Shown here: in pieces, positions 1 to 13,750 of the stretch
Position numbering within the stretch: the first letter of the stretch is position 1
How the letters are laid out: each line of letters starts with the position of its first letter
Assembly: GCA_006226895.1 (NCBI GenBank)
Contig: SBFN01000192.1
Location: 1 to 13,978, forward strand
DNA: 13,978 bases
Direction: 5' to 3'
From: Deltaproteobacteria bacterium
GTDB lineage: Bacteria; Desulfobacterota; Desulfuromonadia; Desulfuromonadales; BM103
Notes under the pieces: model-generated
Databases searched by the model: none
Told to the model about the DNA's origin: nothing
Seen by the model: only the letters and a program-made list of their open reading frames with translations
Made by a program: the position numbers and the translations under genes

Positions 1-202
1 CTACAGGGCAAACGCGGCAACACTCCCCGCAACCGATGCATTTGGCTGCAGTAAAGAGCTTTTGGACTTTTGGTGAGATGCTTTCCGGGTTATGACACCA
101 CTGACAATTCAGCGGACAGCCCTTGAAGAAGATTGTGGCCCGGATACCCGGGCCATCATTAATCGAGTAACGCTTGATGTCAAAAATCAGCGGTTGAGTC
201 AT
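1..202 (-). CDS. hypE: Glycyl radical enzyme activating enzyme (radical SAM), N-terminal part only
   Basis: This gene runs off the left edge; only its first 67 codons are present. Reading leftward from the ATG at 202, the protein starts MTQPLIFDIKRYSINDGPGI and continues with CPLNCQWC (residues 29-36), the CX3CX2C motif that binds the radical-SAM 4Fe-4S cluster. A second cysteine cluster, CIGCGECCRVCP, begins at residue 55 and matches the ferredoxin-like insert of the glycyl radical activase family. Such enzymes use SAM to place the glycyl radical on their partner. The ATG lies one base past the hypD stop, so the two genes are almost certainly co-transcribed and translationally coupled, and the partner is the enzyme encoded just upstream. 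An in-frame ATG at 217, inside the end of hypD, is an alternative start; neither start has a strong ribosome binding site. The family assignment is secure; the name hypE depends on the partner being HypD. Confidence 0.93.
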   Translation of the reverse strand, partial: MTQPLIFDIKRYSINDGPGIRATIFFKGCPLNCQWCHNPESISPKVQKLFTAAKCIGCGECCRVCPV

Positions 203-203
203 A

Positions 204-2660
204 TCAGAACGACTCATTTTCAGTACGCTCAACAACTTCCTGCTGCAGGTCTGCGTTCATATCATTGAAGTAATCACTGTAACCAGCCATGCGTACTAAC
301 AGGTCCTTATAATCCTCGGGAGCCTCCTGGGCTGCTTTCAGGGTTGCAGTATCAACGATATTGAACTGAATGTGGTGACCGCCCAAAGCAAAATAACTGC
401 GCACCAACTGACCCAACCTTGCAACGTCCTCGTTCCGCTTGAGCAGGCTCGGCAAGAAGCGTTGATTAAGCAGAGTTCCACCAGACAAAGTGTGATCAAG
501 CTTGGTCAACGAGCGAACAACAGCTGACGGGCCATGGGTATCCGCACCATGAGACGGCGAGGTGCCGTCAGAGATTGACTTGCCGGCCAAGCGCCCATTA
601 GGAGTCGCCCCCATCACCTTGCCAAAATAGATATGGCAGGTCGTAGAGAGCATGTTGAGATGAAAGGCTTCACCCTTAACATTCGGCTTGCCATCAATCG
701 CAGCAAACAGGTCAGCATAGATCTGCAGGGCGATATCATCCGCATAATCGTCATCATTGCCAAAGAAAGGCGTCTTGTTGAGAACTGTCTGTCGCACGAA
801 CTCTTCACCCTCGAAATTATTAGCAACGGCGTCAAGGAGACGCTCCATGCTGAATGTTTTCGCCTCAAACACATGTTTTTTTAGTACAGCGAGGCTGTCT
901 GTCGTCGTACCAAGACCAGTGCACTGAATATAATTGGTATTATAGCGAGGTCCGGCATCATAATAATCCCGACCCTTGCTGATACAGTCCTCGATTACAA
1001 CCGAGAGAAAAGGGGCCGGGGCATACTTGGCGAACATACGATCGATATAATTACTGACTCTGATCTTGGTATCGACAATAAAATTCAACTGCTTGTTAAA
1101 TGCCTCGTAGAGATCTTCATAAGAGGTAAAGTCACGCGGATTACCCGTCTCAATCCCCGCCCGTTTACCGGTCACCGGGTCGATGCCGTCGTTCAAAGTG
1201 ACCTCGAGGATCTTCGGCACGTTCAGGTAGCCGGTCAGAACGTAGGCCTCCTTGCCAAATGCGCCGACCTCGATACAGCCGCTGCAGCCGCCCTCCCGGG
1301 CGTCCTTGAGAGACTTGCCCTGACGCAGCAGCTCCTCCACGTAAATATCAGGGTTAAAGATTGACGGGTAGCCGTGCCCCTGACGAATCACCTTGCAGGC
1401 CGACTCAAGGAAACGATCCGGCGTCTTGCTGCTGACATGAACAGAATTGCCCGGCTGCAGAACATGTAACTCCTCGACCACTTCGAGCATAATATAGGAG
1501 ACATCGCTGACGCCGTCCTTACCGTCACCAGTGATCCCGCCAATATTGATATTAGTGAAATCGTTATAGGTACCGCTCTCACGGGCCGTAATACCGACCT
1601 TGGGTGGTGCCGGGTGGTTGTTGACCTTGATCCAGAAGCAGCAGAGCAACTCCTTGGCCTGCTCGCGGGTCAAAGTACCAGCAGCAAGCTCAGCCTCATA
1701 AAAAGGAGCCAGATGCTGATCGAAGTGGCCGGGGTTCATGGCATCCCAGCCGTTGAGTTCGGTAATGGTGCCAAGGTGAACAAACCAGTACATCTGGATC
1801 GCTTCGTGAAACGTGCGTGGCGCATTGGCCGGAACCCAGCGGCAGATTTCGGCGATTTTTTGCAGCTCTGCAACACGTCCAGGGTCTCTCTCACCAGCAG
1901 CCAGTTCTTCGGCCAGATCGGCATGACGCTCGGCAAATACGATCACTGCATCACAGGAGACATCCATCGCCTTGAGCTCTTCGAACTTGTCGGTGGCTTC
2001 CGGGTCGCTGAGATAATCAAGGGCTTCGATTTCAGTCGCAATCTGACGTTTGTAATCGAGCATCCCCTTAACATAGATCTGACCATCAAGGGCCGTATGA
2101 CCAGGGGCTCGCTGCTCCATGAACTCGGTAAAGAGCCCGGCCTCGTAAGCCGCCCGCCATTCCTCCGGGACATGGCTGAAGATCCGCTCGCGGATTGTCT
2201 TGCCCTGCCAATAAGGGATCACCTCACTGGCATAGATTTCAACGTCTTCATCGCTGATAGTGTAACGTTGCTGGTCGCGGGTATTGAGGACGTGAAAGTC
2301 TTCAACGCTGTGGCAGGTCAACTCGGGGAAAGTCGGCACCGCATTGGGCTTCGGGCCGCGCTCGGCAACGATCAATTCGCCATCGCCGATATAGAGAGTT
2401 TTCTTCTGGCAGTGGTCGAGAAAATTCAGGGCGCGCAGCATCGGGGTCGAGTGCTTGCCATAATTCTCTTTATAAAAAGCAGTCTCATGCAGGGCACGCT
2501 CAATAGAAAGACTCGGCTCTGTCTCAACACTCAACTTGCGCAAACGCTGGATTCGCTCATTCATTCCAGGGCCGATAACGTTCCTGCTTGGCGAATAAAA
2601 GTTCCCCTCGGCATCAGCATGACGCTGGGGAACAACCTTCAAGTCTCTCTCTTTTGACAT
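204..2660 (-). CDS. hypD: Glycyl radical enzyme, trans-4-hydroxy-L-proline dehydratase type
   Basis: An 818-residue glycyl radical enzyme. The glycyl radical motif RMAGYSDYF places the radical on Gly793, 25 residues from the C terminus. The active-site cysteine is Cys462 in GCSGCIEVG, followed by Glu464, the C-x-E arrangement of dehydratase-type members. Compared from memory with Clostridioides difficile HypD (789 residues), the residues reported around the substrate appear conserved at a constant offset of 28: Asp306, Ser362, Phe368, Cys462, Glu464, Tyr478, Thr673 and Gly793. HypD removes water from trans-4-hydroxy-L-proline to give 1-pyrroline-5-carboxylate, which ProC reduces to proline; the enzyme is cytoplasmic and oxygen-sensitive. 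The N terminus is about 28 residues longer than in C. difficile. The start at 2660 is preceded by a GGGAAGAG stretch; Met33 (2564) is the alternative. A sigma-54 promoter lies about 150 bp upstream and the activase follows directly. A related ring-opening enzyme (HplG type) is not excluded. Confidence 0.85.
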   Translation of the reverse strand: MSKERDLKVVPQRHADAEGNFYSPSRNVIGPGMNERIQRLRKLSVETEPSLSIERALHETAFYKENYGKHSTPMLRALNFLDHCQKKTLYIGDGELIVAERGPKPNAVPTFPELTCHSVEDFHVLNTRDQQRYTISDEDVEIYASEVIPYWQGKTIRERIFSHVPEEWRAAYEAGLFTEFMEQRAPGHTALDGQIYVKGMLDYKRQIATEIEALDYLSDPEATDKFEELKAMDVSCDAVIVFAERHADLAEELAAGERDPGRVAELQKIAEICRWVPANAPRTFHEAIQMYWFVHLGTITELNGWDAMNPGHFDQHLAPFYEAELAAGTLTREQAKELLCCFWIKVNNHPAPPKVGITARESGTYNDFTNINIGGITGDGKDGVSDVSYIMLEVVEELHVLQPGNSVHVSSKTPDRFLESACKVIRQGHGYPSIFNPDIYVEELLRQGKSLKDAREGGCSGCIEVGAFGKEAYVLTGYLNVPKILEVTLNDGIDPVTGKRAGIETGNPRDFTSYEDLYEAFNKQLNFIVDTKIRVSNYIDRMFAKYAPAPFLSVVIEDCISKGRDYYDAGPRYNTNYIQCTGLGTTTDSLAVLKKHVFEAKTFSMERLLDAVANNFEGEEFVRQTVLNKTPFFGNDDDYADDIALQIYADLFAAIDGKPNVKGEAFHLNMLSTTCHIYFGKVMGATPNGRLAGKSISDGTSPSHGADTHGPSAVVRSLTKLDHTLSGGTLLNQRFLPSLLKRNEDVARLGQLVRSYFALGGHHIQFNIVDTATLKAAQEAPEDYKDLLVRMAGYSDYFNDMNADLQQEVVERTENESF

Positions 2661-2812: not shown

Positions 2813-2828
2813 AGCAAGAAGAGTACCA
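2813..2828 (-). promoter_or_regulatory. Sigma-54 (-24/-12) promoter of hypD
   Basis: The minus strand reads TGGTACTCTTCTTGCT. It has GG and GC separated by exactly ten bases, and matches the sigma-54 consensus TGGYACRNNNNTTGCW at nearly every fixed position. GG is at 2827-2826 and GC at 2815-2814. Transcription should begin about 12 bases further, near 2802, leaving a leader of roughly 140 bases before the hypD ATG at 2660. Two sigma-54 activators are encoded nearby, so an activator-dependent promoter fits the context. Confidence 0.8.
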
Positions 2829-2850
2829 ACGGGAAGAAGCCATGGGACCG

Positions 2851-2866
2851 TTATAAAGCCTTATAA
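2851..2866. repeat. Inverted repeat upstream of the hypD promoter
   Basis: The sequence TTATAAAGCCTTATAA has two perfect six-base arms around a four-base spacer. It starts about 23 bases upstream of the sigma-54 promoter. It could be an operator or an AT-rich bending site. It does not match the palindrome seen near livK and the 13476 regulator gene, so no specific protein can be assigned. Confidence 0.4.
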
Positions 2867-3001
2867 TCATGAGCTATTTACCTACCTACAAACACAAGAC
2901 AGGGACAGCAAGCCAGGCCCTTTATTCGTTTTCGTATTTTTTATTCATTGGCGCATACAGAAGGGACAAGAAGAACTCGCTAGTGACAGGTGGTGAGCCC
3001 G

Positions 3002-3403
3002 CTATTTATTCTTTACGGACTCCAACAAGTGCACATTGATAAGTCCAGAGGGGTAAATAACATAAACCAGACTCATTGTCTCACCATCCTTCCCGATACT
3101 CCGGCCATAAGGCAGTGCAACAGTGTACTTCCATTCCCTACCGTCATCATCACGCCAGCTTACAGATGCCTTACGAGCAAGGAGAGGGTGCTCCGAAAAA
3201 CCTATATCCAAGGACTTATGCGGAAGAATAGCATTGACTGCCCCATATCTTTCCGTCGGTTCATGACGCACCTTTACATCGGTGATCCTACTGTTTGTGG
3301 CATTTTTGACATAAACTCTATCAAGCACGGTTTGCGAACGCCCACAAGCCGACAAAACCAAAGAGAGCAAAACACAGACAAAGAACGACAGCCAACTTTT
3401 CAT
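3002..3403 (-). CDS. Small predicted lipoprotein of unknown function
   Basis: This encodes a 133-residue protein with a clear lipoprotein signal. After Met-Lys comes a hydrophobic stretch (residues 4-17) ending in the lipobox LVLSAC, with Cys20 as the residue to be lipidated after cleavage by signal peptidase II. The rest, about 113 residues, has short alternating hydrophobic stretches that suggest beta strands, and no motif I recognise. The residue after Cys20 is Gly, not Asp, which favours outer-membrane sorting if the Lol rules apply. An AGGATGAG stretch precedes the ATG but is not well spaced. The gene follows the methyltransferase on the same strand with a 129-bp gap, so co-transcription is possible but not shown. 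I do not recognise the family and infer no role in amino-acid metabolism. Confidence 0.75.
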   Translation of the reverse strand: MKSWLSFFVCVLLSLVLSACGRSQTVLDRVYVKNATNSRITDVKVRHEPTERYGAVNAILPHKSLDIGFSEHPLLARKASVSWRDDDGREWKYTVALPYGRSIGKDGETMSLVYVIYPSGLINVHLLESVKNK

Positions 3404-3490
3404 ATTTTTCTCATCCTAACAAGAAGCAACTACAAATTGGCCCAAACTTAAAGAAACAGACTAACAACCCAAACAAATGCTCTTAGGATT

Positions 3491-3513
3491 TAACGCAAAG
3501 GCGCGAAGGGGAA
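3491..3513. repeat. Short degenerate GCAAAG-type intergenic repeat
   Basis: Between the methyltransferase and lipoprotein genes the plus strand carries AACGCAAAGGCGCGAAGG, two imperfect copies of a roughly eight-base CGCAAAGG unit. Purine-rich CGCAAAG tandem units occur between genes in several bacteria (general knowledge), but with only two copies here the call is weak. It may be chance. Confidence 0.2.
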
Positions 3514-3532
3514 GAGAAAGCCCGTAAAGAAA

Positions 3533-4150
3533 CTATCTGAGCGACGCCCTGCCCCGGTAGTTAAACGATGCCGGCCGCCATCCGGGGAGATACTCTTTCT
3601 TTATTTCATTGAGCTTAAAGCCACCTCGCTCAACCAGCTCAGGAATGTTGCGATTAAGGTGACAACCTCCACCAACAACCTTCCAGAGGGGATTAATAAA
3701 ATTTTGCATTCTCCGAACACCCGGGTCTGGCGCGACACCATGTTCACAAAATATGAGTTCACCAGCGGGCTTGAGGACACGTGCCATTTGCTCAAGAGCC
3801 TGGTCGGTATCAAAAATTGTGCACAAAGTGTAAGTAACCAGAACGGTGTCAACGCTGTTGCTCTCCAGGGACAACTCCTCCCCGGCCGAACAAATGAATT
3901 CAACATCGAATTTAACAGAAGCTGCTCTTGCTTCTGCCATTCCGAGCATCTCCGACGAAGGGTCAAGGCCCCAGACTTTGCTGACCTTATCTGCATCATA
4001 GTAAGAAAGGTTTAAACCTGAGCCCAGCCCAACCTCCAGCACCCGGCCTCGCGCAAACGGCACAACCTTTCCTCGTTGACTCATAACTGACTGCATATTG
4101 CAGGCGCAGTGGACGAGCTTCGGAAGAACATGCTTGCTGTATAGGCCCAT
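3533..4150 (-). CDS. Class I SAM-dependent methyltransferase (Methyltransf_11/UbiE-like)
   Basis: This 205-residue protein has the Rossmann fold of class I methyltransferases. Motif I, VLEVGLGSGLN (residues 37-47), binds SAM; the acidic residue after strand 2 is in GLDPS (61-65). An SVDTVLVTYTLC segment (99-110) and a VLKPAGELIFCEHG segment (125-138) match the later strands of the Methyltransf_11 domain. The start MGLYSKHVLPKL resembles the usual start of the small methyltransferases of this group, which supports the ATG at 4150 although only a weak GAG precedes it. The substrate cannot be told from sequence; members of this group act on small molecules or lipids. It lies 180 bp beyond the last gene of the transporter operon on the same strand and has no recognisable sigma-54 promoter, so its link to the module is unclear. 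Confidence 0.88.
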   Translation of the reverse strand: MGLYSKHVLPKLVHCACNMQSVMSQRGKVVPFARGRVLEVGLGSGLNLSYYDADKVSKVWGLDPSSEMLGMAEARAASVKFDVEFICSAGEELSLESNSVDTVLVTYTLCTIFDTDQALEQMARVLKPAGELIFCEHGVAPDPGVRRMQNFINPLWKVVGGGCHLNRNIPELVERGGFKLNEIKKEYLPGWRPASFNYRGRASLR

Positions 4151-4330
4151 AACGACTCAGTTAACCACGCCGGAAGGTCAGGAACACCAGTTCACCCTCC
4201 CGACAAAATGCGGGCGCGACAAGAAAGGACCCAACGGCAGTCAACAGAGATTGCCTTGACGGGTGCAAAAATGCCTCGCAAGAGCTAACAATCAAAAGGC
4301 GACAGGAATCATGTTGCGTGAACAATTTAT

Positions 4331-5749
4331 TTAACCTTTCGCACTCGCGCCATGAGAGCCGACTCCATACTTCTGCAGTTTTCTGGCGACCGTAGGCTGG
4401 CTCATACCAAGAGCTTCGGCAATGTCCTGCTGCTTTCGATAGCGCTTACTGGCTTCGGAAAGTACTCGCTTTTCAACACTCTCCAGAATTTGCGTCATTT
4501 TCATCCCGTCTGGCCAATTGCTTTCCACGAGACAACCCTCACCATTGCCCCCCATAATCACGTCCTGAGGCAGATCACCAACATCGAGCATCTCAGTTTC
4601 AGACATCACGACCAAACGCTCGCAGATATTCATCAATTCACGCACATTACCGGGATAATGGTAATGAACCAGAACCTCGAGAGCTGCAGCACTCAGTTTT
4701 CTTGAAACATTGGACCGTAAAGCAAAATGATCGATGTAGGAGCGAATCAGCGCAACCAGGCATTCCTTACGTTCACGCAGGGCCGGGACAAGCAAAGGTA
4801 TAACACTCAAACGGTAGAACAGATCGGTGCGAAATTGGCCGGAAGCAACCAACTGATCAAGGTCACGATTGGTTGCGGCAAGCAGACGGACATCAACTTT
4901 CCGACTCTGAGTGCTTCCCAGGCGAGCAACCACACCATCCTCCATGAAACGCAGAAGCTTGACCTGCGAAGCCAGCGGCAGTTCGGCGACTTCATCGAGA
5001 AACAGGGTGCCACCATCAGCGAGCTCAAGATGGCCCGGCTTGCTGGAAGAGGCGCCGGTAAATGCCCCTTTTTCGTAGCCAAACAATTCGGCTTCGATAA
5101 GCGTTTCCGGGATGGCGCCACAATTGATTTTTATGATGGGTTTGTCGCAACGACGGGAGTTCTTGTGAATCAGGTCCGCGACCAGACCCTTACCAACCCC
5201 CGACTCACCGAGGATCAGAACCGTCGAGTCGACTTCACTGACTTTCAGCGCCTGCCTGAGTGCCTTGACCATACAAGGACTTTTGGCAATCACCGGCTGA
5301 CGGGAGAGAAACTCTTCCTGTAGTTCTTGTACCTGGTGACGAAAATGATCACCGATCGCCTGCTGTTCTTCCAGTTGCCGTTGCAGACGATCCGCTTCAG
5401 TAATATCGCGTTCGCTAACCACCACTCGGATCAGTTCGCCGGCATCATCAAACACGGGAGTCGCCGTAGAAATAAGTTTTCGACCTAAACGATTTTCCTG
5501 CAGCAGGCTGACTACGCTGCGGGACTTGATGGCTTCAAGGGCTGCCGAAGGGAGAATAACCAACCCTTCTTCGGCAACGTCGAGATAGGAACGACCAACC
5601 AACTGTTCAGCAGTGGCATTGTTGATTCGTTGAGAAGCGGGGTTGACACGCAGGATAAGACCGGCACCATCGCAGACAAAGAGGCCATCCGAAGAGGAAT
5701 CGATGATCGCATCATGTTCCCAGGTCAGTTCCTGGATACTCCTGTCCAT
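4331..5749 (-). CDS. Sigma-54 activator: PAS, AAA+ and TyrR/Fis-type HTH domains
   Basis: This 472-residue protein activates sigma-54 RNA polymerase from a distant site. It has a PAS sensor (about 10-118, with the [13 protein letters not shown] start), a predicted coiled coil (119-150), an AAA+ domain (about 155-380) and a C-terminal helix-turn-helix (about 437-462, [20 protein letters not shown]). The AAA+ domain is complete: Walker A GESGVGKG (181-188), the sigma-54-contacting loop GAFTGA (228-233), Walker B LFLDE (249-253) and GNVREL (367-372). There is no response-regulator domain, so it probably senses a ligand or internal state through PAS. A strong AAGGAG sits five bases before the ATG. 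The gene starts 25 bp after the stress protein ends, so it is probably the last gene of the liv operon, which would give feedback control. It is a clear paralogue of the 11746-13476 protein. Confidence 0.93.
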
Positions 5750-5774
5750 GGCCTCTCCTTGAAATGGCTTGGCT

Positions 5775-6581
5775 TTAGTGCGACATCAGCACCGGGACAG
5801 TCATTGACTGCAGCAGATAACGGCCGACATCGCCAAGGACCTGGTTGCCACGACGGAACTGGGAAAAGGCGCCGAAGACCATCAGGTCGGTCCCCTCATC
5901 GGCACAGCGATTGAGCAACAAGTCGCCGATACTAAGCCCTGCGGTAACATGTTTTTCGGCAATCGCATTGACATCGTAGTGACGCAAATGATTGCAGATA
6001 TCGGCGTTATGAGATTCGTAGGCCTCATCGCCTCCATAACCCTGGATAGATATGACGTGAACGGAATCGGCCGCACGCAACAACGGCATGGAATCGTGCA
6101 TGGCTCGCGAAGATTCGGGGCCACCACGCCAGACCAGCATCACTCGCTTGCCTATTCTTTTGATGTCACTGGTGTACGGGACAACCAGTACAGGACGACC
6201 AGCCCCTAACACCGCTTTTTCCGGGAGGTCAACAGGAACTGACTGTTGCTTTGCGTCATGGTCAGACTGGCTGACGATCAGCATGTCGCGATAATGGGCG
6301 TAAAGATTGATCGACTGGACCAAATCAAGTTTGTTTCTGGAGGAGTCGGCACATATCCACTCCGATTCCAGCCCTGCCTGTTCGACCGCTTGCTGGAACT
6401 TCAGCTTGGCCTGATCCGCCAGCTTATAGGGTTGTTCAAAGTCGCTGACTCGATGAGGTGGTATTGTGTAGAGACCTGTCAGCTTGGCATTCTGCTGCTG
6501 AGCCAACTGGATTGCTGTGGCCAGTCTGGTTGAACAGGTTGAGCTTAAATCGATATACACCAGAAGGTCTTTTAAGTTCAT
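5775..6581 (-). CDS. Universal stress protein with two Usp domains
   Basis: This 268-residue cytoplasmic protein has two tandem Usp domains. The first begins NLKDLLVYIDLS and ends near PVLVVPY (about residue 145). The second begins at KRVMLVWRGGPESSRA and ends with the typical TVPVLMSH. Neither half shows the G-x2-G-x9-G-S/T nucleotide loop of the ATP-binding class in full, so ATP binding is doubtful. The start is set by GGAGG eight bases before the ATG at 6581; a longer open frame from 6623 has no such site. The gene lies 44 bp after livF and 25 bp before a sigma-54 activator, inside what looks like one operon. Usp genes often accompany transporters, but the exact role is not known; modulating the transporter or protecting cells during starvation is only a guess. 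Confidence 0.88.
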   Translation of the reverse strand: MNLKDLLVYIDLSSTCSTRLATAIQLAQQQNAKLTGLYTIPPHRVSDFEQPYKLADQAKLKFQQAVEQAGLESEWICADSSRNKLDLVQSINLYAHYRDMLIVSQSDHDAKQQSVPVDLPEKAVLGAGRPVLVVPYTSDIKRIGKRVMLVWRGGPESSRAMHDSMPLLRAADSVHVISIQGYGGDEAYESHNADICNHLRHYDVNAIAEKHVTAGLSIGDLLLNRCADEGTDLMVFGAFSQFRRGNQVLGDVGRYLLQSMTVPVLMSH

Positions 6582-6589
6582 TGATTGAT

Positions 6590-6594
6590 CCTCC
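6590..6594 (-). promoter_or_regulatory. Ribosome binding site setting the usp start
   Basis: GGAGG on the minus strand lies eight bases before the ATG at 6581. It decides for this start over the upstream in-frame ATG at 6623. Confidence 0.8.
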
Positions 6595-6625
6595 CGGGAC
6601 ACAGTGCTGTCTTGTCCCGCCAAGA

Positions 6626-7345
6626 TTAATGCTTCTTACCCAGGTAAGCTTCCTGAACTTTCTCCGAAGCCAACAGTTCTTCCGAGGTGCCGGAGAGGGC
6701 AATTTTACCGACGTCAAGAACATAGCCACGATCTGCCAGCTTCAGCGCAGCCTTGGCATTCTGCTCAACCAGCAGCACCGTCACACCTTTCTTGGCAATC
6801 TCCTTGATTTGCTTGAAGATCGCCTTAACCAGGATCGGAGCGATACCAAGAGAAGGTTCGTCGAGCAGCAGCATCTCGGGATTACTCATCAAGGCCCGAC
6901 CAATCGCCAACATCTGCTGTTCACCACCGGAGAGGGTTCCGGCCAGCTGTTTACGGCGTTCCTGCAGACGAGGGAAAAGCTCGTAGACCCAGGCGAGGGT
7001 TTCACGATCCATCTTGCTCTGGGAGAAGGCACCAAGCATCAGGTTCTCTTCAACAGTGAGAACGCCAAACACGCGACGACCTTCTGGAGAATGACTAATC
7101 CCCAACTTGACGATCTTGTGAGCAGGCAGCTTGGTCAACTCCTCACCCTTGAACTTGATCGAACCGGCCTTAGCTTTAAGTAGCTGGCTGATGGTGCGCA
7201 TGGTCGTGGTTTTGCCGGCACCGTTGGCACCAAGGATGGTTACGATTTCTCCCTTGTGCACTTCGAGAGAGATGCCCTTGATGGCTGCAATGCTGCCATA
7301 GGAGACTTCAAGGTCTTTTATTTCAAACAAAACGTCATTATTCAT
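6626..7345 (-). CDS. livF: Branched-chain amino acid-type ABC transporter, ATPase LivF
   Basis: One of two cytoplasmic ATPases that power the Liv-type importer. With the start chosen here the protein has 239 residues, normal for LivF. Walker A is GANGAGKTT (39-47), the ABC signature LSGGEQQ (138-144) and Walker B MLLLDEP (158-164). The segment SPEGRRVFGVLTVEENLMLGA is typical of LivF and separates it from LivG. The ATG at 7345 is preferred because a GAGG lies nine bases before it; the ATG at 7354 is possible but would abut that GAGG, and a still longer frame (to 7435) has no support. The gene overlaps the end of livG by eight bases, so the two are translationally coupled. It acts with LivG, LivH, LivM and LivK; the substrate class is branched-chain or other hydrophobic amino acids, or related compounds. 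Confidence 0.93.
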   Translation of the reverse strand: MNNDVLFEIKDLEVSYGSIAAIKGISLEVHKGEIVTILGANGAGKTTTMRTISQLLKAKAGSIKFKGEELTKLPAHKIVKLGISHSPEGRRVFGVLTVEENLMLGAFSQSKMDRETLAWVYELFPRLQERRKQLAGTLSGGEQQMLAIGRALMSNPEMLLLDEPSLGIAPILVKAIFKQIKEIAKKGVTVLLVEQNAKAALKLADRGYVLDVGKIALSGTSEELLASEKVQEAYLGKKH

Positions 7346-8117
7346 CGTCGTCATCCTCACTTCCCAAGTAGGCCTCGATGACGGCCGGATTTTTCTGGAT
7401 TTCTTCAGGGGTCCCCTCGGCGATCTTCTTGCCAAAGTTGATCACCGTCAGGTAGTCGGTAACCTCCATAACCATGTCCATATCGTGCTCGATCAGCAGC
7501 ACGGTGACACCTTTGTCACGGATTTTGAAAATAGTTTCCAGAAGCTCCAGGGTCTCTTTATCATTGAGGCCCGCGGCGGGTTCATCGAGAATCAACAGGG
7601 TCGGCTCTACAGCCATCGCCCGGGCAATCTCGACCCGTCTCTGGATACCGTAGGGCAATGAACCCACAGGAGTCGCAGCAAACTCGCTCAGTTTGAAGAA
7701 GTCGAGTTGTTCTTCAACGTTCTTCCAGTTCTCCAGCTCATCCCGTTTCTTCCCAGGGGTAGGGATGATACCATGCCACCATTTCTGCGCGCTCTTGATG
7801 TGACGACCGCTCATGATATTTTCGGCGACCGACATCTGGCCAAACAAGCGGATGGTCTGAAAGGTACGAACAATACCGCGGTCAACAATCTGGTAGGGAG
7901 TCATGCCGCGGATCTCTTCACCTCGCCAGAGAACCGAACCCTCTTCCGATTTGTAGATGCCGGTAATACAGTTAAACACTGTGGTTTTTCCCGCACCGTT
8001 GGGCCCGATGATGCCGTAAATCTGGCCGCTTTCGACCTTGAAGCTCAAAGCATCGACGGCGGTCAATCCCCCGAAGCGCTTGGTGACGTCGGTCAATATG
8101 AGTTCATTATGCGCCAT
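7338..8117 (-). CDS. livG: Branched-chain amino acid-type ABC transporter, ATPase LivG
   Basis: This 259-residue cytoplasmic ATPase pairs with LivF. Walker A is GPNGAGKTT (38-46); the signature reads LPYGIQRR (154-161), a variant of the LSYGQQRR usual in LivG; Walker B is TLLILDEP (173-180), and the switch histidine is in LLIEHDMD. The LivG insert between Walker A and the signature includes the TFQTIRLF segment and a WKNVEEQL helix. The protein ends with an unusually acidic tail, EDDDDE. The codons for this tail also contain the GAGG and the ATG of livF, so the tail may partly reflect the overlap. The start at 8117 is preceded by AAGGA eight bases away and lies inside the end of livM (11-bp overlap), which keeps the operon tightly coupled. 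Confidence 0.95.
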   Translation of the reverse strand: MAHNELILTDVTKRFGGLTAVDALSFKVESGQIYGIIGPNGAGKTTVFNCITGIYKSEEGSVLWRGEEIRGMTPYQIVDRGIVRTFQTIRLFGQMSVAENIMSGRHIKSAQKWWHGIIPTPGKKRDELENWKNVEEQLDFFKLSEFAATPVGSLPYGIQRRVEIARAMAVEPTLLILDEPAAGLNDKETLELLETIFKIRDKGVTVLLIEHDMDMVMEVTDYLTVINFGKKIAEGTPEEIQKNPAVIEAYLGSEDDDDE

Positions 8118-9063
8118 GGTTATTTTCCTTGATCAAGAACTTGGGGATTTTTCCGAAAGTTGCCGGCCAGATACCACGCGGGCGCATAATCATCGCCGCG
8201 ATCATCGCGAAACCGAAAATGAAGTAACGCCAGGTAGCAAACTCGCGGAAAATTTCCGGCAGGACGAACATCACAAATACCCCGAGCAGGACTCCCGGCA
8301 CTGAAGAGCCACCGACCAGAACGATACTGAAGAAGAGTACCGACTGGATAAACTCGAAGGCCTCAGGACTGACTGCCGAATACTGCACGGCAAATACGGT
8401 GCCGGCTAAGCCTGCAATTCCGGCACCGAGGCCGAAGGCGAAGATTTTATAAACGCGCGTGTTGATGCCTATACTCTCGGCCGCCAGCTGATCCTCACGC
8501 AGGTAATGCATAGCACGCCCAGGCTTGCTCCCGGCCAGGTTGTGCATAACCCAGAGGGTCAGCAACAGGACGATAAAAGCAAAATAATAGACCGAGATCT
8601 GGCTCATCAGATCATAGCCGAGGAAACTCAGTGAATCGAGGCCGAAGATACCGTTGGGGCCACCGGTCACACCGCCGAGATTGTTCTGCAGGACTTGAAC
8701 AAAAACAATGTTGAAGCCGATAGTGACGACCAGCAGGTAGTCGCCGCGCAGGTGTACGATCGGACCAGCCAACAGGATACCGAACAGAGCCGGTATGATG
8801 ATCGCCAACGGGATCGTAGCGATGATCGACCATCCATACTCGTTACTAAGGATTGCCGTGGTGTAAGCGCCCATACCGAAGAACAGCGCCTGCCCCATGT
8901 TAAACATACCGCTTTTACCGAGAATAATGTCCTGTGACAACGCCACCACGGAAAAGATCAGGAATGTTATCGCTACCGCCTGCCAACGATCGTCAAGCAT
9001 GTGCGGAAGAACCGCCATAACGACGAAGAAGACCGGGTAAGCAAATTTCTGCAACTCTTTCAT
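8107..9063 (-). CDS. livM: Branched-chain amino acid-type ABC transporter, permease LivM
   Basis: This 318-residue inner-membrane permease forms half of the transport channel with LivH. It is hydrophobic throughout, with about eight to ten membrane segments. Family landmarks are GQALFFGMGAYTTAIL (near residues 57-72), LRGDYLLVVTIGF (near 103-115), GGVTGGPNGIFGLD (near 128-141) and the cytoplasmic loop ending in GAGIAGLAGTVFA, which contacts the ATPases. The start is set by GGAG eight bases before the ATG at 9063. That ATG overlaps the livH stop by one base, in the sequence TGATG, so ribosomes probably restart here. The substrate cannot be read from the permease. Confidence 0.95.
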   Translation of the reverse strand: MKELQKFAYPVFFVVMAVLPHMLDDRWQAVAITFLIFSVVALSQDIILGKSGMFNMGQALFFGMGAYTTAILSNEYGWSIIATIPLAIIIPALFGILLAGPIVHLRGDYLLVVTIGFNIVFVQVLQNNLGGVTGGPNGIFGLDSLSFLGYDLMSQISVYYFAFIVLLLTLWVMHNLAGSKPGRAMHYLREDQLAAESIGINTRVYKIFAFGLGAGIAGLAGTVFAVQYSAVSPEAFEFIQSVLFFSIVLVGGSSVPGVLLGVFVMFVLPEIFREFATWRYFIFGFAMIAAMIMRPRGIWPATFGKIPKFLIKENNHGA

Positions 9064-9959
9064 CAGACTTTCTCCGCAACCCGCTCACCGAGAATACCGG
9101 TCGGGCGGACAATCAAGATTAATATCAGCAGGATAAAGGTAAAGGCGTCAGCCCAAGTACTGGAGACATAACCGGCGATAAAGGCGTTGAACAGACCTAG
9201 CAACATCCCGCCAAGCATAGCACCGGGGATATTACCGATACCGCCGAGAATCGCTGCGATAAAGGCGTAGAGGCCGTATTGCCAACCCATATTAAAGGTA
9301 ATGCCGCGATAGTAGAGACCGATAAACAGGCCACCGACAGCACCAAGCGAAGAACCGATAATAAAGATCAGTGCGATAACACTGTTGACGTTGATACCCA
9401 TTAAGCGAGCTGCATCCTGGTCGATGGAGGAGGCGCGAATCGCTGCACCTATGCGGGTTTTTTCAACGAACAGGTAGAGAGCAACCATCAAAACCAGTGA
9501 CAACACCAGGATGATCACCTGGATCATGCTAATCACTACACCGCCAAAATCCCAATAGACCTGTGGGACCAACTCAGGGAAGATGCGCATCCGTGGTCCC
9601 CAGATAAGCATGATACCGTTCTGGATAACCAGTGAGGCACCAAGCGCCGAGACCACTGCCGACAAACGCGGCGCCTCACGCAAGGGACGATAAGCAACCC
9701 GTTCGAGGATAATGCCGACAATTGCCATGGCAACCGCAGTCAACAGAAAGATAGCAACGACTGCGACCAGCGAGGTCGCCTGCCCCATCACCTGTGTATA
9801 AATTGTCAGGCCGACGAATGCCGAAGCCGCCACCATGTCACCATGAGCAAAGTTGATCAAGCGCATGACGCCGTAGACCATGGTATAGCCGAGCGCAACC
9901 AGAGCGAACATACTACCGATAGTCAGGCCGTTCGCTAACTGTTGTAAAAAAGTGTCCAT
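9063..9959 (-). CDS. livH: Branched-chain amino acid-type ABC transporter, permease LivH
   Basis: This 298-residue inner-membrane permease is the partner of LivM. It opens with the typical LivH sequence GLTIGSMFALVALGYTMVYG, followed by RLINFAHGD. Further landmarks are YRPLREAPRLSAVVSALGAS and, in the ATPase-contacting loop, IDQDAARLMGINVNSVIAL. About eight membrane segments are visible and there is no signal peptide. The ATG at 9959 has GGAG six bases upstream. It follows livK after a 179-bp gap that holds a strong hairpin, which could lower expression of the permeases relative to the binding protein. Confidence 0.95.
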   Translation of the reverse strand: MDTFLQQLANGLTIGSMFALVALGYTMVYGVMRLINFAHGDMVAASAFVGLTIYTQVMGQATSLVAVVAIFLLTAVAMAIVGIILERVAYRPLREAPRLSAVVSALGASLVIQNGIMLIWGPRMRIFPELVPQVYWDFGGVVISMIQVIILVLSLVLMVALYLFVEKTRIGAAIRASSIDQDAARLMGINVNSVIALIFIIGSSLGAVGGLFIGLYYRGITFNMGWQYGLYAFIAAILGGIGNIPGAMLGGMLLGLFNAFIAGYVSSTWADAFTFILLILILIVRPTGILGERVAEKV

Positions 9960-10138
9960 AAACTTCTCCGGGTTTATTGTACGAGTTGCCTTGCAGAAGC
10001 CAGAGGAGGACTATGCCGTCCTCTGCTCGCGCCTGAAGGGCAATTTACTTTGTCTGCACTTAATTCCCTGAATGGGCAAAGATTAAGGGGCGGGGGAAAA
10101 ACTCTCTCCCCCGCCCCTTCCTGAACAATCAGGCGTTC
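9960..10138 (-). other. 179-bp livK-livH gap with hairpins
   Basis: There is no gene here. The region holds the GC-rich hairpin at 10085-10119, a weaker one at 10001-10025 (CAGAGGA/TCCTCTG), a small CCTGA/TCAGG repeat at 10120-10133, and the livH ribosome binding site. I found no sigma-54 promoter, so livH to livF probably depend on transcription from the livK promoter. Confidence 0.6.
10085..10119 (-). terminator. GC-rich intercistronic hairpin after livK
   Basis: Perfect 12-base arms, AAGGGGCGGGGG (10085-10096) and CCCCCGCCCCTT (10108-10119), enclose an 11-base loop, 20 bases past the livK stop. On the minus strand no run of T follows, so it is unlikely to be a full intrinsic terminator. 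It is better read as an RNA-stabilising or partial-attenuation structure that keeps the binding-protein message more abundant than the permease message, a common pattern in binding-protein transporter operons. Confidence 0.6.
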
Positions 10139-11260
10139 TTACTGAACGTACTCGTTGAAGTAGGTTCCATCAGCCTGAATTTTTTTGACGACGTAGGCAC
10201 CGCCTTTGCGGTTGCCGTCTTTAGCGAAGGCAATCGGACCGGTGATTCCTTCCAGCGGCTCTGACATGTTGTGCAGGTAATCAGCGGCCTTCTTGGTGTC
10301 GAAGCTCTTGGTCTGCTCCATGGCGTGAATAATGGCACGCATGCCGTCGATATTCATCAGACCCCAGATGGAAGGTGGCATTTCGCCATACTTTTTCTGG
10401 TAGTCAGCAATGAAGGACTTGGCGATCGGAGTCGGCAGAGCAGCAGGCTCAGGAACGTTGACGATGAATGCGCCAGTAGCGGAGGAACCAGCCAGTTTGA
10501 CAAAGTCAGGGTTGTCGTTGGCGTCACCACCGTAGAAATCAGCTTTGATACCGAGAGCAACCTGCTGTGCACGCAGCTGACCACCGTCGGAGTAGTAACC
10601 GGCGAAGAAGATCGCGTCAGGGTTCTTTGATTTAATGTTGGTCAGGACCGGAGTGAAGTTCTGAGAATCAGCTTTGATCTTGTCGCGGGAAATTACGTTG
10701 CCACCCATCTTCTTAATAGCGGCTTCGGTAGCGTTGGCCAGGCCGTCAGCATAAGTCGAGAAATCGGAGATAACGACGATGCGCTCGTATTTCTTGACGT
10801 CAACCAGGTACTTGGCAACAAACTCAGCTTCAGCGCTGTTCGGGAAGGAGTTACGCAGGAAAGTCCAGTAGCCATTCTCTGTCAGGCTGTCGGCTGTACC
10901 GTCTGATGTTTGCAGAACGCCAGCTTTGAAGTAGGTCTTCTGAGCGGCTTCAGCGCAGGTTGAGGTGTAGGAGCCGATAACCATCTTAGCACCTTTGTTA
11001 ACCAGGTCTTTGGCGCAGATTGCGGCGGCCATTGCGGTCCCTTGATCGTCGCAGACGAGAACTTCGATCTGCTTGCCCATAACGCCGCCATCGGCGTTGA
11101 CCTGCTCAGCGAGCAAACGTACGCCGTTCTCAATGCCTTGACCTTCGTTCGCGTAGCTACCTGTAATTGGCGCCTGAACACCAACTTTGAGCGTGTCTGC
11201 TGCGAACGCGGTGCCGGTTGCAAGGAACACGGCGAGGAATGTTGCCAGATACTTTTTCAT
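10139..11260 (-). CDS. livK: Periplasmic amino acid-binding protein of the Liv transporter
   Basis: This 373-residue protein captures the substrate in the periplasm and delivers it to LivHMGF. Residues 1-20 are a Sec signal peptide (MKKYLATFLAVFLATGTAFA) with likely cleavage before Ala21-Asp22. The mature protein starts DTLKVGVQAPITGSYANEGQ, the standard opening of the Peripla_BP_6 family, and continues with AEQVNADGGVMGKQIEVLVCDDQG. Cys70 and Cys82 may form the disulfide seen in this family. The loop GSYTSTCAEAA (97-107) occupies the position that binds the substrate's amino and carboxyl groups. AAGGAG lies seven bases before the ATG at 11260; a longer frame from 11335 lacks such a site. A sigma-54 promoter is about 155 bp upstream. 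The ligand is unknown: branched-chain amino acids are the default, but the nearby HypD and shared promoter type make hydroxyproline or another imino acid worth testing. Confidence 0.95.
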   Translation of the reverse strand: MKKYLATFLAVFLATGTAFAADTLKVGVQAPITGSYANEGQGIENGVRLLAEQVNADGGVMGKQIEVLVCDDQGTAMAAAICAKDLVNKGAKMVIGSYTSTCAEAAQKTYFKAGVLQTSDGTADSLTENGYWTFLRNSFPNSAEAEFVAKYLVDVKKYERIVVISDFSTYADGLANATEAAIKKMGGNVISRDKIKADSQNFTPVLTNIKSKNPDAIFFAGYYSDGGQLRAQQVALGIKADFYGGDANDNPDFVKLAGSSATGAFIVNVPEPAALPTPIAKSFIADYQKKYGEMPPSIWGLMNIDGMRAIIHAMEQTKSFDTKKAADYLHNMSEPLEGITGPIAFAKDGNRKGGAYVVKKIQADGTYFNEYVQ

Positions 11261-11267
11261 GTCTCTT

Positions 11268-11273
11268 CTCCTT
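11268..11273 (-). promoter_or_regulatory. Ribosome binding site setting the livK start
   Basis: AAGGAG on the minus strand lies seven bases before the ATG at 11260. It places the signal peptide at the very N terminus and argues against the upstream ATG at 11335. Confidence 0.85.
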
Positions 11274-11414
11274 AAAATGGGTTGGAACGTTTGGTGAGTC
11301 GACAGGATGTCGAAAACCCACTGATTAAACTGCATTCAAAAAAACTGCCTATAACTATACCATCTTGAATAAAGCTTAAAAGACGAGCCTGAAAAAAACA
11401 GATGAAAAACCTAG

Positions 11415-11430
11415 AGCAAGGCTGATGCCA
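11415..11430 (-). promoter_or_regulatory. Sigma-54 (-24/-12) promoter of the liv operon
   Basis: The minus strand reads TGGCATCAGCCTTGCT. It matches the sigma-54 consensus TGGCAC-N5-TTGCW with one change in the -24 element. GG (11429-11428) and GC (11417-11416) are ten bases apart. Transcription should begin near 11404, giving a leader of about 143 bases before livK. Confidence 0.85.
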
Positions 11431-11639: not shown

Positions 11640-11648
11640 GACAGATCC

Positions 11649-11662
11649 ATGCAAATACGCAT
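11649..11662. promoter_or_regulatory. Candidate activator-binding palindrome upstream of livK
   Basis: ATGCAAATACGCAT has perfect ATGC/GCAT arms six bases apart. It agrees at 11 of 14 positions with the palindrome at 13506-13519 ahead of the regulator gene. It lies about 220 bp upstream of the -24 element, a workable distance for an enhancer. Confidence 0.4.
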
Positions 11663-11745
11663 AAACGTGAACAAGGCTGCAATCATATCAGCAGAGAGAA
11701 GTTCTTTTACATTTCAGAACACTGCATGAGGATAGAGACGGTGTG

Positions 11746-13476
11746 TCACAGAAGACCATAACGTTTTAGCTTGCGTGCGATTGTCGACTGGTTCACGCCG
11801 AGAACCTCAGCGATCCTGGCCTGGCTCCTATAGCGCTCACGCGCTTTCGTGAGGAGGTTTCGTTCAACCGTCTCCAGTGCCTCCTGTAAAGTCACGGTTT
11901 CCGGCCAATCCAGCTCTTCCGGCAGGCGAGCCTTGACGCTACCTGCCACCTGTGTCGGCAAGTCAACCAGGTCAATCACCTCGGTTTCCGACATAACAAC
12001 CAGTCGCTCACAGATATTCATCAACTCGCGCACATTGCCAGGAAATGAGTAGTTGCACAAAACATCTATAGCTGCACGCGAGAGACGCCTGGACTCGTTG
12101 TTAAGATGAGAGAAGTGATCAACATAGTGCCTGATCAAAGGGACCAGACAGTCCTTGCGCTCACGTACCGCAGGCACATGTATGGGAATAACATTGAGAC
12201 GGTAATAAAGATCGAGCCTGAAAGTGCCCTTTTCAACCATATCATCCAGGTCTCGGTGAGTTGCCGCGAGTACGCGCACATCAAGCGTACGCCCTTCGGT
12301 CCCTCCCAGTCGTGTGATCCTTCCGTCTTCCAGGAAGCGTAGCAGCTTCACCTGGGCCGACAAGGGCAATTCAGCAACTTCATCAAGGAAGAGGATGCCT
12401 TCATTGGCCAGCTCAAAGTGGCCAGGCTTGCCGCCCGCATTGGCTCCTGTAAATGCACCTTTTTCATAACCAAACAGCTCCGCCTCTACCAGCGACTCGG
12501 GTATCGCACCACAATTGATCTTGATCAACGGCCGATCGGCGCGTCGGGAATTGTGATGGACCATATCGGCGATTACACCTTTACCAACACCTGATTCTCC
12601 GAGGATCAGAACCGAAGAATCAGCTTTAGCCACCCGCATTGCCTGGCGCAAGGCCTTGACCATGGTCGGGCTGCGGGCGATAATTTTCCTCTTCTCAAGC
12701 TCCGTCTGCTGCATTTCCAACATCTGGTGACGAAACTGATCCTTGATCGCCTCCTGATTCTCAAGTTCACGCTGCAAGGAATCGATCTCCGAGATGTCAC
12801 GTTCACTAACCACAACCCTGATCAACTCCCCGGCTTGATCAAATACCGGAGTTCCTATGGAGATCAGCTTCCCGTTGTCGGGCATGTTCTGTAACAAGCT
12901 GACAGTCTCTTTTGTCTGACAAGCCTCCAGCGCCGCAGAGCGATCTATGAACCCCTCAGGAATCAGATCTCGCATATTCCTGCCGACCATCTCGGAAGCC
13001 GGGCGCTTATGGATGCGCTCCGAAGCAGGATTGACACGGATGACGTTCGCATCACCATCACACACGAACAGTCCATCAGAAGAAGAGTCAATGATCGCCT
13101 GAAGTTCAAGAGTCAAGGCCTCGAAGTTAAGCATACGGCGATCACCATCGGGTGTCGTGGGAGCCGGCGGCAGAAGACAAAGAGTCAGCGGTCCGGAAGG
13201 AGACTCCACCGAACTGAGCAGAGCCAGGTAGGGAGCACTCGTGCCACGGAGAATTGTTAGAGGAGGATGAACGGTTGCACTACGGCTGAAATTCCCTACC
13301 GCTTCGGCCAACTTGGGCAGAGGCTCGGCCAGCAGCATTCCTGCCAGAGCTTCTGCCACAGGATTACTGAAGACAATACGCATCTCCCTATCGCATACCA
13401 ACAAAGGAACGGAAAGAGCTTCTATAAAGGCGGGAGCAAGCGACTGCAAATCAACAGACAAGTCATGACTGGGCAT
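11746..13476 (-). CDS. Sigma-54 activator: two sensor domains, AAA+ and TyrR/Fis-type HTH
   Basis: This 576-residue activator of sigma-54 RNA polymerase has a divergent PAS-like N-terminal domain (about 12-105), a typical PAS domain (about 120-232), a coiled coil (233-265), an AAA+ domain (about 268-495) and a C-terminal helix-turn-helix (about 549-572, IAEVLGVNQSTIARKLKRYG). The AAA+ motifs are intact: Walker A GESGVGKG (293-300), GAFTGA (340-345), Walker B ILFLDE (361-366), arginine-finger segment RLDLYYRL (420-427) and GNVREL (480-485). From residue 125 on it aligns with the 4331-5749 protein throughout, so they are paralogues differing mainly by about 115 extra N-terminal residues here. 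AAGGAGG lies four bases before the ATG at 13476. It lies just upstream of livK, so it is the first candidate to activate the liv promoter. No phosphorylation domain is present, so a ligand or redox/energy signal is likely. Confidence 0.94.
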   Translation of the reverse strand: MPSHDLSVDLQSLAPAFIEALSVPLLVCDREMRIVFSNPVAEALAGMLLAEPLPKLAEAVGNFSRSATVHPPLTILRGTSAPYLALLSSVESPSGPLTLCLLPPAPTTPDGDRRMLNFEALTLELQAIIDSSSDGLFVCDGDANVIRVNPASERIHKRPASEMVGRNMRDLIPEGFIDRSAALEACQTKETVSLLQNMPDNGKLISIGTPVFDQAGELIRVVVSERDISEIDSLQRELENQEAIKDQFRHQMLEMQQTELEKRKIIARSPTMVKALRQAMRVAKADSSVLILGESGVGKGVIADMVHHNSRRADRPLIKINCGAIPESLVEAELFGYEKGAFTGANAGGKPGHFELANEGILFLDEVAELPLSAQVKLLRFLEDGRITRLGGTEGRTLDVRVLAATHRDLDDMVEKGTFRLDLYYRLNVIPIHVPAVRERKDCLVPLIRHYVDHFSHLNNESRRLSRAAIDVLCNYSFPGNVRELMNICERLVVMSETEVIDLVDLPTQVAGSVKARLPEELDWPETVTLQEALETVERNLLTKARERYRSQARIAEVLGVNQSTIARKLKRYGLL

Positions 13477-13505
13477 AAAACCTCCTTAACTAAAAAACCT
13501 ACTTT

Positions 13506-13519
13506 ATGCGTAAACGCAT
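13506..13519. promoter_or_regulatory. Palindrome upstream of the 13476 regulator gene
   Basis: ATGCGTAAACGCAT has perfect five-base arms around a TAAA spacer, 29 bp upstream of the regulator ATG. It resembles the 11649-11662 site. It is a candidate autoregulatory site for the regulator, which would then repress or tune its own promoter. GTTTACGC, found within it on the minus strand, also occurs at 13815-13822. Confidence 0.45.
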
Positions 13520-13750
13520 CGACTATGCAACAGGGAATTATTTATTCACAAGACAATGCCTGACAAGAAAAAAAAAGCAAACAAACCCGGACACAAACGA
13601 ATAAAACCCCACAAAAGATACTCTTGGTACAGTCCTTTTGGTTGAGGAACAGAGTTTTTCTATGCGCAAAGGACTCCGTCATAGCTTCTTCACGCACAAA
13701 TCAAAGGCACCAAGGAAGACAACGATAACAAACTGGCCGTCTGCGATCGC

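Follow-up and report, generated by a model that had tools for sequence, protein, structure and literature searches.

Proline and trans-4-hydroxy-L-proline in Desulfuromonadales: a predicted sigma-54 regulon, probably divided between two paralogous activators

The DNA analysed here, called the window throughout, is the whole stretch of 13,978 nucleotides of contig SBFN01000192.1 from a bacterium of the order Desulfuromonadales. It carries hypD (204..2660; like all window features given below, on the minus strand), encoding a trans-4-hydroxy-L-proline dehydratase of the glycyl radical enzyme type, together with the transporter genes livKHMGF, usp and the genes of two predicted sigma-54 activators, act1 (4331..5749) and act2 (11746..13476). 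Comparison with related genomes indicates that in Desulfuromonadales these genes probably form part of a regulon under sigma-54 that serves proline and trans-4-hydroxy-L-proline, the control of which would be shared between the two paralogous activators. Judged from its context, LivKHMGF would import the imino acid, and HypD, activated by HypE, would convert hydroxyproline into 1-pyrroline-5-carboxylate (P5C). Proline dehydrogenase (ProDH) would turn proline into P5C as well, and P5C dehydrogenase (P5CDH) would oxidise P5C to glutamate. Act2, with a recognition helix starting NQST, would bind TTATGCA-N4-TGCATAA ahead of livK, of P5CDH-ProDH and possibly of its own gene, and would thereby serve uptake and proline oxidation; act1, with a helix starting SQPT, would bind TGAATAA-type dyads ahead of hypD and serve hypD. 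Promoters, dyads and their classes, gene order and the agreement of helix and site were obtained by comparison; from these we infer binding, inducers, transport substrate and enzyme activities.

Sigma-54 (-24/-12) promoters were sought in the window with the consensus TGGCACN5TTGCW (at most one mismatch; null model of 200 shuffles of the window) and with a matrix trained on 69 sites, all from genomes outside the genus of the window. The sole consensus matches are two sites with GG-N10-GC and conserved flanks, one ahead of hypDE (TGGTACTCTTCTTGCT, 2813-2828, beginning 168 bp from the hypD ATG) and one ahead of livKHMGF-usp (TGGCATCAGCCTTGCT, 11415-11430, beginning 170 bp from the likely livK ATG). 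Consensus evidence alone proves little, because at least two matches were also reached in 26 of the 200 shuffles (mean 0.57); counting of consensus matches in the window was rejected as sole proof, and matrices trained on relatives were used instead. When both strands of the window were scored with the sigma-54 matrix, these same two sites took the top two ranks (20.4 and 17.7; next match 11.1), which bears out the two sites named in the original prediction. The two predicted promoters are made convincing by their conservation in relatives. An Rfam scan of the window returned nothing at gathering scores.

In the relatives, sites were counted at a matrix threshold of 11 within 400 bp upstream, and upstream regions were taken from 51 of the 57 genomes with a P5CDH match and from 53 of 54 for livK. 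A site was found in all 51 P5CDH regions, in 30 of the 39 hypD regions (G004 left out) and in five of the 53 livK regions, these five being the genomes in which livK directly follows act2 (G000, G010, G011, G015, G017). Control regions gave few or none (livH 0/48, usp 0/33, act1 1/30, act2 0/12, hypE 1/48, ProDH 2/50), and the antisense control gave 0 to 5 sites per set. An enrichment ahead of livG (10/44) was rejected as conserved coding sequence, because the region ahead of livG is the coding sequence of livM. Since all five livK genes with a site of their own follow act2, livK of the window would bear the promoter role that precedes P5CDH elsewhere. The claim of a two-unit regulon, in which only hypD and livK carry sigma-54 promoters, holds within the window and fails beyond its edge: the two units are an effect of where the window ends, because P5CDH-ProDH, a third sigma-54 unit, follows hypE in close relatives.

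Of 277 genomes of the class, 62 have a match to the HypD model above the cut-off; the stretches compared comprised 52 around hypD, 55 more around livK, P5CDH or activators and a further 20 around activators. Conservation of the neighbourhood, which had been proposed as a check, was found in many genomes of the order. The full gene order of the window recurs in two relatives from its genus (L040, L042) and part of it in L049 and L126. In L040 and L042, hypE is followed by P5CDH (779.3 bits to TIGR01236 in L040, cut-off 613.6) and then by a ProDH relative that matches at 63-66% the ProDH of L055, itself a match to PF01619. The common order (family f8, also f9 and others) is act2-P5CDH-ProDH-livKHMGF-usp, often followed by act1, with hypD-hypE-MATE-like-EamA farther along the run or directly behind usp (L073, L078). 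Given this run together with hypD-hypE, P5C and then glutamate would be reached from hydroxyproline as well as from proline. The context is that of a predicted imino-acid catabolism, and the joining of P5CDH and ProDH to the neighbourhood supports the earlier idea of an imino-acid uptake-plus-catabolism regulon. The order in G106 is act2-ProDH-livK, with a sigma-54 site (14.9) ahead of ProDH; in G069 nothing lies ahead of livK in its stretch, and the neighbouring stretch (L124) ends with act2-P5CDH-ProDH.

Upstream of the sigma-54 sites, the word TGCATAA occurs in 34 of 50 P5CDH regions (2.1 in shuffles), and TGAATAA and ATGAATA occur in 22 and 23, respectively, of 30 hypD regions (2.2 and 1.9 in shuffles). 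Dyads were searched for in the form TTATNCA-Nx-TGNATAA, and two classes of 18 bp were defined, GC (TTATGCA-N4-TGCATAA) and TA (TTATTCA-N4-TGAATAA). A spacing of 4 dominates ahead of P5CDH (47/51; 1.0 after shuffling), hypD (29/39; 1.4), livK genes with their own promoter (5/5; 0.2) and act2 (7/12; 0.0), and dyads of this spacing are absent from the act1 (0/30), usp (0/33) and livH (0/48) controls. Spacings of 8 ahead of act2 (4/12), 3 ahead of ProDH (14/50) and 5 ahead of livH (9/48) are unexplained. In two of the five livK regions (the window and G017) the dyad counted lies downstream of the promoter, because the enhancer sits beyond 400 bp. A GC dyad lies behind act2 in G010, G011, G015 and G017; its counterpart in the window (11647..11664) has three mismatches. 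The best P5CDH dyads are GC in 41 of 47 cases and TA in six (one of which, in G075, ties with a GC dyad). For hypD, TA is the commonest class (13/29), the rest being mixed, with GA hybrids in the family of the window; the act2 leaders are mixed as well (2 GC, 4 TC, 1 GA).

The predicted hypD enhancer of the window is a hybrid dyad, GTATGCG-CCAA-TGAATAA (2941..2958), 112 bp upstream of the -24 element, and a weaker second dyad lies at 2922-2939. The predicted livK enhancer, TTATGCG-TATT-TGCATGG (11647..11664), stands 216 bp upstream of its -24 element. The corresponding distances in relatives from the genus are about 91-112 bp (hypD) and 214-218 bp (livK). When the window was scored with the P5CDH-class matrix (37 sites, outside the genus), the livK dyad was the best match (19.5), followed by an enhancer-like dyad (13504..13521; 14.5) that lies 27 bp upstream of the act2 start codon and is a possible autoregulatory site, and by the hypD dyad (9.3); the next match scored 3.9. 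By count, the dyad pattern at up to three mismatches is unremarkable in the window (seven found, 3.9 expected), and the intergenic sites are singled out by the trained matrices only.

The class of the dyad follows the recognition helix of the activator in front of it. Activators in the act2 position have helices starting NQST or SQPT, and the count covers activators with at least 60 bp of sequence behind them. For the 58 NQST activators, which include other paralogue groups, the best-matching dyad behind the gene was GC in 47 cases, CC in one, TT in one (the window) and none in nine; behind the six SQPT activators in the act2 position it was TA in four and none in two (G092 and G093, which have TA dyads at or over the 3' end of the activator gene). 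Behind the act2-position activators there was no crossed best match between helix and dyad class. A tree of 96 activators, built with a quick method, puts 27 SQPT and two SQSS rows into the act1 clade. The f9 and G105 rows with SQPT helices form a group next to the NQST set; G130, which has a long branch, falls within the act2 side, a placement that is unsure. If the tree is right in this, site and helix would have changed together twice. G093 and G094 combine a TA-type put unit with an SQSS helix in act1 and a hypD dyad ending in TGGGTAA. Our tentative suggestion is that the difference of one bp per half-site (TGCATAA/TGAATAA) may be set by the helix start (NQST/SQPT) and that site and helix may have changed together at least twice (f9 plus G105; G130). 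A third pair, SQSS/TGGGTAA, may then have arisen where the first two would clash (G093, G094), and the hybrid hypD enhancer of the genus may take both inputs, so that HypD would integrate proline and hydroxyproline signals.

The presence of act1 goes with that of the hypD promoter. When act1 was defined as rows of at least 64% identity, without G105 and G130 (which the tree places elsewhere), it was found in 24 of 31 genomes in which hypD has its own promoter and in none of the 12 genomes without one (Fisher 3e-6, uncorrected for relatedness). Absence of act1 could reflect incomplete genomes; among genomes at least 90% complete, the counts were 20 of 23 with and none of six without an own hypD promoter. 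In G011 and G013 (genus of the window), G084 and G130, hypD lies directly behind usp and has neither a site of its own nor an act1 match. It is only where hypD stands directly behind the liv run, as in these four genomes, that joint control of liv and hypD is predicted. By these comparisons livK of the window is assigned to act2 with fair confidence; hypD is assigned to act1 mainly because of the act1 association and the TGAATAA half, and, the hypD enhancer being a hybrid of both classes, some shared control by act1 and act2 may exist.

Such sharing could go further. If both activators, or a mixed hexamer of them, acted on both promoters, uptake and HypD would rise on one signal, much as the original prediction had them switched on together. 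The hybrid hypD dyad of the window, a perfect hybrid in G005 (TTATGCA-CGAA-TGAATAA) and the four relatives just named, which probably have one switch, are in favour of this; however, no hypD region of the 24 act1-bearing genomes has GC/GC as its best dyad, none of the 58 NQST activators is followed by a best dyad of the TA class, act1 was found in none of the 12 genomes in which hypD lacks its own promoter, and the SQSS helix with the TGGGTAA dyad in G093 and G094 looks as if cross-talk were being avoided. We regard one common switch as unlikely. Switching on together is itself doubtful, as livK/P5CDH and hypD mostly have different enhancer classes, which follow the two paralogous activators.

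Several observations weigh against a regulon divided between act1 and act2. The Fisher value above takes no account of relatedness, and seven genomes with an own hypD promoter gave no act1 match, among them three of at least 90% completeness (G014, G062, G087). Eight of the 12 hypD genes without a site of their own are not directly behind usp and are unexplained, as are hypD dyads at spacings of 0 (10/39; 1.0 expected) and 8 (7; 1.4 expected). A real exception is livK of G090, which lacks both ProDH and any sigma-54 site over a distance of 1,500 bp. For the hybrid hypD dyad of the window, the hypD-class matrix (23 sites; 8.1) gives no higher score than the livK/P5CDH matrix (9.3), and the best window match of the hypD-class matrix is a TA-like dyad at 11355-11372 (11.4), downstream of the livK promoter and ahead of the livK start; the next matches score 5.1 (11647-11664 and a livH site). 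This dyad is possibly an act1 site, or mere kinship. Finally, neither P5CDH nor rpoN was found in the assembly to which the window belongs (60% complete); in favour of the regulon, rpoN is present in 10 of 11 genomes of the genus. Similar TTATTCA-type dyads were seen between the livK promoter and the livK start in G010, G011, G015 and G017.

The transporter consists of the five parts of the LIV/HAAT architecture: livK (10139..11260; frame open from 11335, start at 11260 by relatives), a periplasmic binding protein (PF13458) with predicted proline/hydroxyproline binding, the permeases livH (9063..9959) and livM (8107..9063), and the ABC ATPases livG (7338..8117) and livF (6626..7345). Behind livF follows usp (5775..6623; likely start at 6581 by relatives), a universal stress protein family gene by PF00582 and by its position in relatives. 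A rival reading, in which livKHMGF would be a common branched-chain amino acid transporter that lies beside hypD by chance, is improbable. In its favour, the PDB proteins that match LivK best bind leucine or Leu/Ile/Val, and the top-scoring models are those based on Liv of E. coli, although the matches stay below the NCBIfam cut-offs (livF 285.9 against 441, livG 288.3 against 362, livH 229.9 against 379, livM 203.2 against 366, livK 177.7 against 477). Against it, 41 of 53 genomes have livK in a P5CDH-ProDH-livK run with a sigma-54 site at its head (in four more, livK follows a ProDH at the stretch edge), and in three other genomes a different type of hypE-hypD has joined the same liv run. 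In these three (L131, L132, L133 from G124, G095, G045), hypE or hypE-hypD matching the references at 42-53% lies behind the put-liv run, apparently as an independent pairing.

The window hypD is, by model and residues, a real HypD with predicted conversion of hydroxyproline to P5C. It scores 1183.7 bits to NCBIfam NF043068 (equivalog cut-off 1100), and its best PDB match is 6vxc (E 5.6e-293). Residues D367, C462, E464, T673 and G793 align with the reference residues D339, C434 (the catalytic cysteine), E436, T645 and G765, the CXE motif reading C462-I-E464; excerpts of PMC7077986 place these five residues in the active site. Of hypE (1..202), the radical SAM activase of HypD, only the 5' part is present, as the contig starts inside the gene; its frame contains CX3CX2C. 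The full-length hypE relative of L040 stays below the NF043069 cut-off (344.7 against 425 bits) and passes that of TIGR02494 (331 against 174.35 bits). That two sigma-54 activators are encoded was confirmed: act1 and act2 each combine a PAS domain, a sigma-54 AAA+ domain with GAFTGA (residues 228 and 340, respectively) and Walker A, and a Fis-type helix-turn-helix (PF00158, PF18024, PF02954), with the helices SQPTVA in act1, the predicted activator of hypD, and NQSTIA in act2, the predicted activator of livK and P5CDH-ProDH. A small lipoprotein-like open reading frame and a methyltransferase gene lie between act1 and hypD (3002-4150), as they do in L040, L042 and L049; no link of either to the regulon was seen.

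Further observations were made around hypD in the relatives. Clusters of the 3-hydroxyproline type adjoin hypD or act1 in L039, L041, L045-L047, L137, L145, L147, L162 and L163. At least one relative of trans-3-hydroxyproline dehydratase/proline racemase, of cis-3-hydroxyproline dehydratase (AcnX) or of a pyrroline-2-carboxylate-reductase-like protein occurs in each of L039, L045-L047 and L137; three such proteins were tested and passed Pfam cut-offs, not NCBIfam equivalog cut-offs. These clusters suggest the use of several hydroxyproline isomers. In these genomes act2 precedes a different liv set (LivK about 30%), and the GC dyad is kept in G005, G006, G012, G014 and G018. Behind hypE in L055 (17156-19385) and in many f8 loci lie genes of a 441-residue membrane-like protein, which has no Pfam match at 1e-5, and of an EamA-type transporter; this pair, a possible further transporter of the regulon, also follows ProDH in L099 and usp in L113, where no hypD was seen.

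The distant hypD genes of L079-L085 (54-56%) are without the neighbourhood. Among 80 named hypD loci, 78 had a scorable upstream stretch and 17 scored at least 11 ahead of hypD; all of these except L197 are labelled Desulfuromonadales, Deltaproteobacteria, Geobacteraceae, Desulfuromonas, Desulfuromusa, Malonomonas or Pelovirga. Records L183 and L188, which carry Xanthomonadales and Lysobacterales labels, have a P5CDH (81-84% to the reference) close to a hypD that shares 82-83% identity with that of the window; this is another sign of a HypD-P5CDH link, or of mislabelled bins. HypD proteins 77-81% identical to that of the window occur in L189, L191-L204 and others, labelled Bacteroidota, Anaerolineae, Neomarinimicrobiota and others; no livK or activator match was found in the stretches compared, many of the Bacteroidota-labelled loci being short. 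Either transfer between phyla or mislabelled bins would account for them.

The hydroxyproline pathway of Clostridioides difficile and commensal Clostridia has proC close to hypD and leads from P5C to proline by reduction. The HypD reaction and the catalytic residues given in excerpts of PMC9044972 and PMC7077986 are the same here. P5CDH and ProDH, however, accompany hypD in the relatives of the window and therefore point to oxidation to glutamate; proC was not searched for. The nearest described system is PrdR of Clostridiales, which, in the excerpted text of PMC6615313, controls the proline reductase (prd) genes and recognises TGT/ACA repeats with a spacer of 10-12 bp. Control of proline catabolism by a sigma-54 enhancer-binding protein whose sites lie upstream of a -24/-12 promoter is a feature of PrdR and is predicted for the present system too. 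PrdR (NF041552) is the best NCBIfam match of act1 and act2, but their scores of 352.4 and 398.6 bits fall far short of the cut-off (795), so that by the model they are not PrdR. Moreover, two paralogues take the place of one, the dyads are TTATGCA/TGCATAA and not TGT/ACA repeats, and oxidation and a glycyl radical dehydratase would be the targets (prd genes were not searched for). Excerpts of PMC12316311 list proline dehydrogenase among genes under sigma-54 in Bacilli. In the main texts of the sigma-54 surveys PMC12316311, PMC4641369 and PMC2725144 the word 'hydroxyproline' is absent, and in that of the Geobacter paper among them 'proline' is absent too. Among the titles listed in a literature search, none was on a sigma-54 regulon for hydroxyproline; papers outside that list may treat one.

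What is predicted for sediment Desulfuromonadales is an inducible anaerobic route by which the hydroxyproline of collagen would be converted into glutamate. The two activators would also offer an example from nature of how sigma-54 activators may remain insulated from each other after duplication, with site and recognition helix changing together; this case also rests on act1 not being found wherever its presumed target promoter is missing. The proposed scheme can be tested step by step in cultured relatives.

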